The notes beneath the pieces are model-generated. The model ran no database searches. It had not been told where the DNA came from and was given only the letters and a program-made list of their open reading frames with translations. From Maritimibacter sp. (GTDB taxonomy: Bacteria; Pseudomonadota; Alphaproteobacteria; Rhodobacterales; Rhodobacteraceae): a DNA stretch of 64,000 nucleotides. This document shows positions 59,008 through 61,632 of the stretch, in pieces. The first letter of the stretch is position 1. Each line of letters opens with the position of its first letter. Position numbers and translations under genes: made by a program. The stretch covers positions 1,922,001-1,986,000 of the forward strand of contig CP051232.1 of NCBI GenBank assembly GCA_017792445.1, in the 5' to 3' direction.

Positions 59008-59394
59008 TCAGTCCTGCTGGCCGGGCACCCGCTTCGGCGCGCCGGTGGCCATGTCGGTGCCCATGTAGGGAAGACACGCCTGCTTCCACGCGGCGAATCC
59101 GCCTTCCATGTGCGTGACCGGCACCATGCCCTTGGCCGCACAGGCCGAGGCGATCCGGCCCGAGCGCGCGCTGGACCCGCAGTACAGCACCAGCCGCTTG
59201 CCCTGCTGCGACGGCAGCTTCTCGGAATCGAAGAACGGCATCGGCAGCAGCAGCGCGCCTTCGACGTGTTCCAGCATGTATTCCTGCGGCGTGCGCACGT
59301 CGATGAGGGCGATCTTGCCCTGCGAATATGCGTCCCAGACCTCCTGCGGCGTCCAGGTCTCGATGGTGCCGCCGTCGACGGTTTCGGTTTTCAT
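59008..59394 (-). CDS. Rhodanese-like domain protein
   Basis: 128 residues. Single rhodanese domain with catalytic Cys in 'VLYCGSSARSGRIA' and 'ALIDVRTPQEY' before it; the active-site loop C-G-S-S-A-R fits sulfurtransferases that use thiosulfate or persulfides. It is cytoplasmic (no signal peptide). It lies 24 bp after the MBL gene as the second gene of a leftward operon that would act on sulfane sulfur. Confidence 0.92.
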   Translation of the reverse strand: MKTETVDGGTIETWTPQEVWDAYSQGKIALIDVRTPQEYMLEHVEGALLLPMPFFDSEKLPSQQGKRLVLYCGSSARSGRIASACAAKGMVPVTHMEGGFAAWKQACLPYMGTDMATGAPKRVPGQQD

Positions 59395-59418: not shown

Positions 59419-60315
59419 TCAGAGCTTGTTCGCCGGGATCTTGAAGTACGCGTTGCCATCCGCCTCTGCCGGCGGAAGACGCCCGCCGCGCAGGTTGACC
59501 TGCAGCGCGAACAGCATGCGGTCCGGCAGCGCCAGCGTCGCGTCTCGGTCGTCGCGCAGCTTGCAATACTCGGCCTTCGAGGTGCCGCCGCCGATGTGCT
59601 TGTTGTTCTCGCGGTGCTCGGCGACCGTCGCTTCCCATGCGGGGTCCTTGCGGTCTCCGACCGGCGGATAGTCGTGGCCGACGAACAGGCGGGTGTCGTC
59701 GGGCAACGACAGGATCGCCATCAGCGAGTCATACAGTTCGGCAGAGGATCCGCCGGGGAAGTCGGCGCGCGAGGTGCCGCTGTCGATATGCATGAATGTG
59801 TCGTGAACAAAGGCGGCGTCGCCGATCACGTAGGTGATCGAGCCCAGCGTGTGTCCGGGCGAAAGCATCACTTTCACCTCCAGATCGCCAAGCGTGAAGG
59901 TCTCGCCCTCCGCGAACAGGCGGTCAAAATCGCGGTCGGGATCGAAGGCACCGGGCGTGTGGTAGATGTCTTCCCACAGCTTCGCGATGTCGCGGACCTT
60001 CTCGCCGATGGCGGCAGGCGCGCCGGTCTGCTCTTTGAGCCAAGCCGAGGCCATCATGTGGTCCGCGTGGGGGTGGGTGTCGAGCACCCACTCGACGGTC
60101 AGCCCCTCGGACGTCACGAAATCGAGGATCTCGGCGGCGCTGTCGGTGCGGGTGCGGCCGTGGGACGGGTCGAAGTCGAGAACGACGTCGATCAGCGCGG
60201 CCTTCTTCGTAGCGTCGTCGATGGCGACATACTGGATGCTGCCCGAAGCTTCTTCATAGAACCCGACGACGCGGGGCGATTTCGGTCCCGAAGACGGGCT
60301 TTCTTTTCTGAACAT
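59419..60315 (-). CDS. MBL-fold persulfide dioxygenase-like protein (Blh/ETHE1-type)
   Basis: 298 residues. Metallo-beta-lactamase fold with the HxHxDH site in 'DTHPHADHMMASA' (about residue 80), a metal ligand His in 'MLSPGHTLGSITYV' and another in 'FVGHDYPPVG'; an Asp ligand in 'AFVHDTFMH'. The pattern 'GSIQYVAIDDATKKAALIDVVLDFDP' (in part) resembles Blh and ETHE1-type persulfide dioxygenases that convert glutathione persulfide to sulfite. It lacks the DUF442 domain of Xylella/Agrobacterium Blh. It heads a two-gene operon with the rhodanese behind a SqrR/BigR-type palindrome. Confidence 0.9.
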   Translation of the reverse strand: MFRKESPSSGPKSPRVVGFYEEASGSIQYVAIDDATKKAALIDVVLDFDPSHGRTRTDSAAEILDFVTSEGLTVEWVLDTHPHADHMMASAWLKEQTGAPAAIGEKVRDIAKLWEDIYHTPGAFDPDRDFDRLFAEGETFTLGDLEVKVMLSPGHTLGSITYVIGDAAFVHDTFMHIDSGTSRADFPGGSSAELYDSLMAILSLPDDTRLFVGHDYPPVGDRKDPAWEATVAEHRENNKHIGGGTSKAEYCKLRDDRDATLALPDRMLFALQVNLRGGRLPPAEADGNAYFKIPANKL

Positions 60316-60344
60316 GTTATCCCTCCGTAGACGGTTCGGAAGGA

Positions 60345-60370
60345 TACATATTCTTGACGCGGAATATGTA
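60345..60370 (-). promoter_or_regulatory. SqrR/BigR-type operator of the MBL-rhodanese operon
   Basis: TACATATTC and GAATATGTA form a perfect 9-bp inverted repeat with an 8-bp spacer, so its core is ATTC-N8-GAAT, the form reported for persulfide-responsive ArsR-type repressors SqrR/BigR. It lies 29 bp upstream of the MBL ATG. On the minus strand TTTACA and TATGTA, 16 bp apart, overlap the palindrome and could be the -35 and -10. No such repressor gene is in the window. Confidence 0.8.
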
Positions 60371-60381
60371 AAGGGCCGGTG

Positions 60382-60432
60382 GAGGCAGGAATTTCCAGAA
60401 ATTCCTGCCTCGCACGATCTTCTAGAAGATCG
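60382..60432. repeat. Two adjacent perfect palindromes between MBL and aminotransferase genes
   Basis: First, GAGGCAGGAATTTC-CA-GAAATTCCTGCCTC (60382-60411) with a 14-bp stem and 2-nt loop. Second, CGATCTTCTAGAAGATCG (60415-60432), an 18-bp perfect palindrome. They lie between the aminotransferase stop and the operator of the MBL operon, and the first can fold as a strong hairpin that would stop aminotransferase transcripts. Confidence 0.7.
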
Positions 60433-60444
60433 CGCCGCGCCGTT

Positions 60445-61632
60445 TTACGCCTTGTCGACCGCCGCGATGGCTTGCGCGAGGATCGGGACCGTCTTGGCGT
60501 TCAGACCGGCGATGTTGATGCGGCTGTCGCCGACCATGTAGATCGCGTGATCCTCGCGCAGCTTCTCGACCTGTTCCGGCGTCAGGCCAAGGCGGCTGAA
60601 CATCCCGCGGTGCTGGGCGATGAAGCCGAAGCGGTCCGAGCCGGTCAGCTTGCGCAGTTCGTCCGCCAACTGCTCGCGCAGTTTGAGCATGCCAAGGCGC
60701 ATCTCTTCCAGCTCTGCCATCCAGTCCGCCTTGAGCGCGTCGTCGGCAAGGATCATGCCCACCAGCCGCGCGCCATGGTCCGGCGGGAACGAATAGTTCT
60801 GCCGGTTCAGGTGGTTCAGCGTGCCCTGCGCGACAGCGGTTTTCGAGGCGTCCTCCTGGATCGCCATCAGAACGCCGGCCCGCTCGCGGTAGATGCCGAA
60901 GTTCTTCGAGCAGCTTGCGGCGACCAGCGACTCGGGACAGGTCGATACGACGTGGCGCACACCGGCGGCGTCCGCTTCCAGCCCATCGCCGAAGCCCTGA
61001 TAGGCGATGTCGATCATCGGGATCGCGCCCTTGGCGTTCAGGATCTCGGCGACCTTCTTGAACTCGGGCAGGGTCAGGTTGGCGCCGGTCGGGTTGTGGC
61101 AGCAGCCGTGCAGCAGAACCACGTCGCCCGCCTTCAAACCGTCGAGGTCGGCGATCATGCCGTTGAAGTCGACGGCGCAGGTCTCGTTGTCGAAATACCG
61201 GTATTCGCGCATGGTGATGCCCATGTGCTTGAGGATCGACACGTGGTTCGGCCACGTGGGGGCCGAGACCCAGACGGTCACGTCGGGGTTCGCCATCTGC
61301 ACAAGGTCGAAGGCCTGACGCACCGCGCCGGTGCCGCCCGGCGTCGCGGCGGCAGCCACGCGATCGGCGGCGACGGCATCGCCCAGCACAAGATCGCGCA
61401 TGCCGGCGGCGAAGGCCGGGTCACCGGCGAGGCCGGTGTAGGACTTGGTCGTCTCGGTTTCCCACAGCTGCTTTTCGGCGGCCTTGATGGCGCGCATCAC
61501 CGGTGTGACGCCCTCGGCATCCTTGTAGACGCCAACGCCAAGGTCGACCTTCTGCTCGCGCGGGTCGGCCTTGTACATCTCCATCAGCATCAGGATCTTG
61601 TCCTTCGGCTGGGCTTGCAGCTCTTTCAGCAT
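60445..61632 (-). CDS. tyrB: Aspartate/tyrosine/aromatic aminotransferase (class I, tyrB-like)
   Basis: 395 residues. Fold-type I PLP enzyme: 'VDLGVGVYKDAEG' at the start, 'PGGTGAVRQAF' and 'LLHGCCHNPTGANLT' for cofactor binding, 'MIDIAYQGFGDGLEADAAGVR' (in part), and the Schiff-base Lys in 'ASCSKNFGIYRERAG'. It fits the Asp/aromatic aminotransferases, some of which also convert cysteine to 3-mercaptopyruvate. It starts 4 bp after the sseA stop, so the sulfurtransferase gene is its operon partner. Confidence 0.93.
   Translation of the reverse strand: MLKELQAQPKDKILMLMEMYKADPREQKVDLGVGVYKDAEGVTPVMRAIKAAEKQLWETETTKSYTGLAGDPAFAAGMRDLVLGDAVAADRVAAAATPGGTGAVRQAFDLVQMANPDVTVWVSAPTWPNHVSILKHMGITMREYRYFDNETCAVDFNGMIADLDGLKAGDVVLLHGCCHNPTGANLTLPEFKKVAEILNAKGAIPMIDIAYQGFGDGLEADAAGVRHVVSTCPESLVAASCSKNFGIYRERAGVLMAIQEDASKTAVAQGTLNHLNRQNYSFPPDHGARLVGMILADDALKADWMAELEEMRLGMLKLREQLADELRKLTGSDRFGFIAQHRGMFSRLGLTPEQVEKLREDHAIYMVGDSRINIAGLNAKTVPILAQAIAAVDKA

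Follow-up and report, generated by a model that had tools for sequence, protein, structure and literature searches.

What controls the MBL-rhodanese operon of this Maritimibacter genome, and is the palindrome in front of it the operator of a persulfide sensor? The operon lies in the window, by which we mean the whole 64-kb stretch of DNA analyzed here (C1:1922001-1986000 of a 4.68-Mb single-contig genome). A reading of the DNA made from sequence only (hereafter the sequence-only reading) had described a perfect palindrome 29 bp before the first gene, containing ATTC-N8-GAAT, and its symmetry, distance, and core all proved exact. Positions 60345-60370 read TACATATTC TTGACGCG GAATATGTA, a perfect 9 + 8 + 9 inverted repeat (TACATATTC-N8-GAATATGTA, with no strand), and the 29 bases from 60316 to 60344 lie between it and the MBL start codon (ATG at 60315, minus strand). 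The core half-sites ATTC (60350-60353, plus strand) and GAAT (60362-60365, plus strand) form ATTC-N8-GAAT with dyad symmetry, which is the recognition sequence deduced for SqrR in PMC9774250. From this sequence and its conservation upstream of relatives, we predict the palindrome to be a SqrR/SoxR-type operator.

The bare core is by itself compatible with chance in the 64-kb window, because it was seen twice where 0.66 would be expected, and at least two copies were present in 16 of 100 shuffles. Perfect 9-base arms spaced 8 apart occur at two further places in the window, both within longer inverted repeats. The complete palindrome is not compatible with chance: allowing 3 mismatches, the window contains it once, and none of 100 shuffles does.

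The first gene of the operon (59419-60315, minus strand), preceded by a likely ribosome-binding site, GGAGGG at 60321-60326 (minus strand), as judged from the sequence, encodes an MBL-fold protein of 298 aa. Its match to NF040641, its PDB relatives, and a Pfam Lactamase_B domain point to a persulfide dioxygenase resembling the C-terminal part of Blh. Against NF040641, which models the Blh bifunctional sulfurtransferase/dioxygenase with both domains, the protein scored 416 bits over model positions 140-423 only and thus fell short of the whole-fusion cut-off of 625 bits. The nearest solved relatives were 9g8t, 4ysk (a dioxygenase), and 4efz, at E = 6.5e-67 or better, while ETHE1 (4chl) was further away at 2e-12, and the metal motif HPHADH fits the HxHxDH of ETHE1-like MBL proteins. 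The protein is therefore predicted to be an ETHE1-like persulfide dioxygenase. The second gene begins 24 nt after the MBL gene (59008-59394, minus strand) and encodes a single-domain rhodanese of 128 aa with a CGSSAR loop (Pfam Rhodanese).

The palindrome had also been said to overlap likely -35 and -10 boxes, and this part of the earlier reading held only in a weakened form. The best promoter read by eye, TTTACA-N16-TATGTA on the minus strand, consists of a possible -35 at 60367-60372 (minus strand, five of six matches) and, 16 nt from it, a possible -10 at 60345-60350 (minus strand, three of six matches, a poor hexamer), and the palindrome would overlap both. However, the scanner found no sigma-70-like promoter in 60250-60500, at these hexamers or elsewhere. 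With hexamers read by eye and a negative scan, the palindrome may overlap promoter boxes.

We examined the conservation of the palindrome among relatives by searching genome contigs with the MBL protein, which gave 44 loci: 23 with a rhodanese gene directly downstream and 21 others. Of the 23 MBL-rhodanese loci, 21 have a site with up to 3 mismatches at a distance of 15-37 bp upstream of the MBL match; those of Histidinibacterium (L039, 4 mismatches) and Marinovum (L069, 5 mismatches) lack it. Among the 21 others, of which L073 ends before a rhodanese gene could appear and five are not independent because they share one upstream sequence, no site was found at 15-37 bp; the four matches within 3 mismatches all came from Aurantimonas, lay 83-137 nt away, and belonged to a different repeat. 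The upstream 120 nt were also compared with shuffles, which ignore kinship among the relatives, for 20 loci with at least 74% identity, picked from the 44 after the site positions in all 44 were known. The site occurred within 3 mismatches in 19 of the 20 (shuffle mean 1.0, maximum 5), within 2 in 13 (mean 0.145), and within 1 in 7 (mean 0.01). On this conservation beyond the shuffles, we reject a chance origin of the full palindrome. When the 20 sites and that of the window were aligned on the operon strand, ATTC was complete in 20 of 21 and GAAT in 14, and the spacer varied.

A family sample of 149 genomes, each from another genus and some from species that were also among the 44 loci, was searched as well. 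The MBL gene was found at E ≤ 1e-100 in 27 genomes (28 genes), and a site within 3 mismatches preceded 9 of the 28 (0.74 in shuffles). Seven of the genes share at least 75% identity, and 6 of these have the site, compared with 3 of the remaining 21. No repressor gene was linked to any of the 23 MBL-rhodanese loci (2.5 kb searched on each side; less in L034 and L055). A SqrR/SoxR/BigR-type gene lies near the MBL gene in 19 of 72 loci (some species counted twice). The palindrome, with up to 2 mismatches, adjoins the linked repressor gene in 6 of these 19 (L051, L053, L054, L184, L190, and L199) and is absent in 13, and the 6 cases tie it to this repressor family. Co-occurrence of genes is uninformative in this respect, because nearly every genome of the family sample has such a repressor (130 of 149; 25 of 27 with the MBL gene versus 105 of 122 without it, p = 0.53), and the same applies to their presence in every operon-carrying genome described below. 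Genome-wide site counts separated genomes with a repressor from those without it weakly (mean 3.4 vs. 2.4, p = 0.014). Both MBL-containing genomes without a repressor match (G122 and G149) lacked the site, which is an anecdote since 19 of the 28 sample MBL genes lack it at 3 mismatches.

The sequence-only reading had tied the operon to persulfide-responsive ArsR-type repressors, and this link is supported by two repressor homologues in the genome and by the recurrence of the core at further sulfur genes. A search with the BigR model returned two close SqrR/BigR-type homologues, both with the two sensing cysteines, and four weak ArsR-type matches. One homologue is encoded by a solitary gene (C1:51281-51598; hereafter SqrR-like) and the other by a gene in the sox cluster (C1:4418423-4418713; hereafter SoxR). 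In this cluster soxY passes its model and the rest was named from gene order, so that soxS, V, W, and X are putative assignments. The two proteins are 74% identical to each other and 65% (SqrR-like) and 63% (SoxR) identical to Rhodobacter capsulatus SqrR over 95 residues. Their sensing cysteines stand at positions 37/103 and 51/117 of the stretches used, and both positions are cysteine in all 34 aligned rows, which comprise both proteins of this genome, two relatives from the PDB, and 30 of 34 homologue matches from operon-carrying genomes. Because the two scored 100.9 and 96.6 bits against the NCBIfam BigR model (NF040642; cut-off 155 bits), "SqrR/SoxR-type" is a safer label for them than "BigR"; none of 14 control genomes gave a match over this cut-off either. 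In the repressor tree, 3 of 31 inner branches were well supported and R. capsulatus SqrR formed a long branch of unsure place, and we therefore do not claim the solitary protein as its orthologue. The best site upstream of the solitary repressor gene has 3 mismatches and lies 115 nt away. In two relatives, a second SqrR-type match (G017:C45:126937-127218 and G020:C16:19059-19340) has one internal stop and is possibly a decaying paralogue.

We consider it highly likely that a persulfide-responsive ArsR-type repressor from the SqrR/SoxR group controls the MBL-rhodanese operon with the palindrome as its operator, in the following way. Reduced repressor dimers would sit on the palindrome and block the MBL-rhodanese promoter. 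When sulfide is oxidized to persulfide or polysulfide, sulfur would bridge the two conserved cysteines and the repressor would leave; such repressors are described as forming sulfur bridges between two cysteines and then leaving DNA (PMC12423496, PMC10451225). The dioxygenase and the sulfurtransferase would then be made and would turn persulfide into sulfite and bound sulfur, and the SqrR-like protein and SoxR would probably both be able to use the operator. What was computed here comprises the palindrome and its conservation, the presence of two repressor genes that retain both cysteines, and the same-core sites at other sulfur genes; we infer binding, sulfur bridging, derepression, and enzyme activity in this organism by analogy with the named relatives. 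The palindrome is very probably real as a functional site, and the switch would be of an already known kind.

Which of the two repressors serves the operator can be approached through genomes that hold one. All 21 operon-carrying genomes searched contained at least one repressor homologue (E ≤ 1e-15), and nine contained exactly one. This single homologue is sox-linked in four genomes (G001, G002, G009, and G019), of the solitary type in one (G015), and of no clear type in G006, G007, G016, and G018, the last of which is labelled sox-linked in the tree from one SoxS-like neighbor (41%). The site was within 3 mismatches in eight of the nine; G007 has 4. G002 and G019 are the same as G092 and G088 of the family sample, as judged from identical repressor coordinates, and each is 99% complete with one homologue. 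Poseidonocella pacifica and Puniceibacterium sediminis are among the species in which the search turned up a sox-linked repressor alone. G015 is a Maritimibacter sp., the nearest relative in the MBL search (90%), and its sole homologue sits beside the same ABC-F gene as the own solitary repressor; as a metagenome assembly, it may not be complete.

It could be argued from these genomes that SoxR alone or mainly serves the operator, so that the operon would be part of a thiosulfate/sox response and the solitary SqrR-like protein would have another job. The four genomes in which the sox-linked homologue alone was found still keep the site, two of them being 99% complete, and in the own genome the same core is present upstream of the sox-adjacent MBL gene and of the gene that precedes soxY. 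On the other hand, G015, with the above reservation about its completeness, keeps the site with 1 mismatch and was found to hold the solitary type alone. Exclusivity of SoxR is also not expected, because SoxR and sHdrR of Hyphomicrobium are reported to bind the same probes (PMC12423496). We regard this explanation as rather unlikely, although SoxR is as good a candidate repressor here as the solitary SqrR-like protein. Use of one operator by both paralogues is the simplest reading, because the same three targets are preceded by the site in G001, where SoxR alone was found, and in G015, where the SqrR-like type alone was found, and it is probable since single-repressor genomes keep either type.

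Six of the nine single-homologue genomes were searched for the strict pattern RYATTC-N8-GAATRY, which gave 28 sites, 10 of them at recognized sulfur genes. Five of the 28 are the MBL-rhodanese sites, that of G006 missing the strict pattern. Among 20 further sites inspected, 15 were not at recognized sulfur genes and 5 were: those at the second dioxygenase operon and at TsoY in both G001 and G015, and one in G019 at a SulP gene. A fumarylacetoacetase-like gene seems to contain two more as a coding site, and the remaining one lies in G006.

If the palindrome is the operator of a sulfur-sensing repressor, related sites should accompany other sulfur genes, and the earlier reading had likewise looked to sqr and other sulfide genes for the same palindrome. 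The same core was indeed found before such genes, with different outer bases. ATATTC-N8-GAATAT with up to 2 mismatches occurs at 39 places in the genome, against 4 for the reversed control, and exact core sites number 27, against 2. The surroundings of all 27 were inspected, with genes taken from a codon-usage caller that mis-extended some starts (e.g., that of TsoY). Six of them, at five loci, precede sulfur genes: the MBL-rhodanese operon of the window; an operon for a YgaP-like membrane piece, a second MBL dioxygenase, a DUF442-SQR-like fusion, and a SulP permease; a TsoY-family gene, which has two overlapping sites; the gene before soxY, putatively soxX; and an MBL gene beside sox, with an AidB-like match below its cut-off. 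The SQR assignments in the genome rest on below-cut-off matches of 203 bits (the SQR half of the fusion) and 220 bits, against a family cut-off of 525 bits.

The TsoY-family gene was followed through the family sample. Its two overlapping operator copies (C1:2111671-2111696; L025:6672-6697) lie 49 nt before the stretch matching the TsoY model and appear inside the called gene because the gene caller over-extends its start. TsoY-family genes are present in 43 of the 149 family genomes, and for the best-scoring 30 of the 43 genes (L142-L171), the 200 nt before the model match were examined. The operator was found with up to 2 mismatches in 24 of these 30 (shuffle mean 0.3, maximum 3), with up to 1 in 16 (0.03 in shuffles), and with none in 4 (0 in shuffles). 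For TsoY, no Pfam match exceeded the family cut-off, and a profile search up to E = 10 gave no relative of solved structure. It is named in a selenoprotein table of a 2026 review (PMC13188914), and the open-licence literature searched yielded neither a function for this conserved (seleno)protein family nor a report of SqrR/SoxR control of TsoY or of the MBL-rhodanese operon. That TsoY is an exporter is a guess.

These data also bear on whether a dimeric regulator unrelated to sulfur binds the palindrome, its fit to the SqrR motif being coincidental. The core is indeed short and occurs twice in the window, and most of the exact core sites in the genome (21 of 27) lie inside genes (many of them) or near genes without a recognized sulfur role. 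However, the palindrome adjoins a SqrR/SoxR/BigR-type gene in 6 of the 19 linked loci and precedes several sulfur operons, and TsoY, a gene that usually bears the site, is confined to genomes with a repressor, which is present in 43 of 43 TsoY genomes versus 87 of 106 others (p = 0.0018, kinship ignored). Such a regulator is thus very improbable. Also very improbable is that the inverted repeat acts as RNA, either as a leader hairpin or as the terminator of the upstream aminotransferase gene: the palindrome does fold to a 9-bp stem in minus-strand RNA and its outer mirrored columns co-vary (C-G in 6 and T-A in 6 of 21 sites), as the dyad symmetry of a protein site would likewise make them do, but core changes go uncompensated (the second-half A becomes C in 5 of 21 while its partner stays T, and three other core changes break the pair), the scanner did not score the palindrome as a terminator, and the longer repeat at 60382-60411 is a better candidate for ending the upstream transcript.

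That longer repeat (no strand) and a further inverted repeat at 60415-60432 lie between the aminotransferase gene and the operator. The former may mark the transcript end of the aminotransferase gene, although the scanner did not score it as a terminator. Repeats similar to it (GCAGGAATTTC-NN-GAAATTCCTGC, allowing up to 3 mismatches) are found at three more genomic positions.

In Xylella and Agrobacterium, bigR lies within the BigR-blh operon. This system is like the operator-controlled operon proposed here in that a sulfide-sensing ArsR repressor stands over a sulfurtransferase/dioxygenase operon (PMC5823870). The BigR-blh operon is described as encoding a fused Blh (PMC5823870), whereas here a single-domain dioxygenase is followed by a separate rhodanese with no linked repressor, and the own repressors stay below the NCBIfam BigR cut-off. 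The SqrR regulon of R. capsulatus resembles the one proposed here in the core ATTC-N8-GAAT (PMC9774250), in its dual-cysteine ArsR repressor, and in an SQR-like gene among the targets. However, the PDO (rcc02976) and PDO-rhodanese fusion (rcc01824) genes of R. capsulatus are given in PMC9995734 as not SqrR-regulated, while two predicted dioxygenase operons here carry the operator; control of the dioxygenase would therefore be a difference of this lineage, if confirmed.

Hyphomicrobium denitrificans, like the present genome, has two related repressors of this kind, the sulfane-sulfur repressors SoxR and sHdrR, which are reported to bind the same DNA probes in vitro, and its SoxR is reported to have effects outside the sox operons (PMC12423496, PMC10451225). 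The other repressor of Hyphomicrobium controls shdr genes, whereas the sites here stand at genes for dioxygenase-rhodanese, DUF442-SQR-like, and TsoY proteins. The homologue YgaV of Escherichia coli is described as occupying an ATTC-N8-GAAT-like site at its own promoter; there it covers the sigma-70 sites of ygaVP, and transcription begins 28 bp upstream of the gene (PMC9774250). YgaV represses its own operon, whereas the best site before the solitary repressor gene here is the distant one with 3 mismatches. As PMC9774250 describes for the katG region bound by YgaV, no ATTC-N8-GAAT-like sequence was found there, and the motif is therefore not needed at every target.

The site and the type of switch are thus already known, and what is new are the targets, including control of the dioxygenase, which are modest extensions, and the apparent interchangeability of the repressors. 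A motif first seen by eye becomes a testable regulon of five sulfur loci in one genome, joined by one core operator and including the dioxygenase step; TsoY becomes testable through its placement in the persulfide response, and natural single-repressor strains allow one to ask whether SoxR and SqrR are interchangeable. To a broader proposal we give about an even chance: in this bacterial family, one persulfide operator would be common to interchangeable SqrR-like and SoxR paralogues, either of which could be lost with the regulon kept, and this regulon would include the dioxygenase-rhodanese operon. TsoY would be a new core member of it and hence a component of sulfur oxidation, for example an exporter of a product such as sulfite.

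Several minor observations were made on sites outside these loci. Sites with 2 mismatches lie before the second SQR-like gene (4524674; L029:4675-4694) and between peroxiredoxin and cydAB genes (4527763; L029:7764-7783) of one cluster, which is possibly a unit of sulfide-tolerant respiration under the same control. Core sites also occur before a gene for a DUF2189 membrane protein (C1:262174; L200) and upstream of a gene whose product has a signal-like N-terminus (C1:828672; L205), and the Maritimibacter relative G015 has sites before what appear by eye to be the counterparts of both genes (L128 and L130). Finally, the four Aurantimonas MBL genes (L050, L064, L065, and L070), which have a linked SqrR/BigR-type gene nearby, carry a ATATTAGACTTGTCTAATTT-like inverted repeat 83-137 nt before the MBL match that is perhaps another type of operator.
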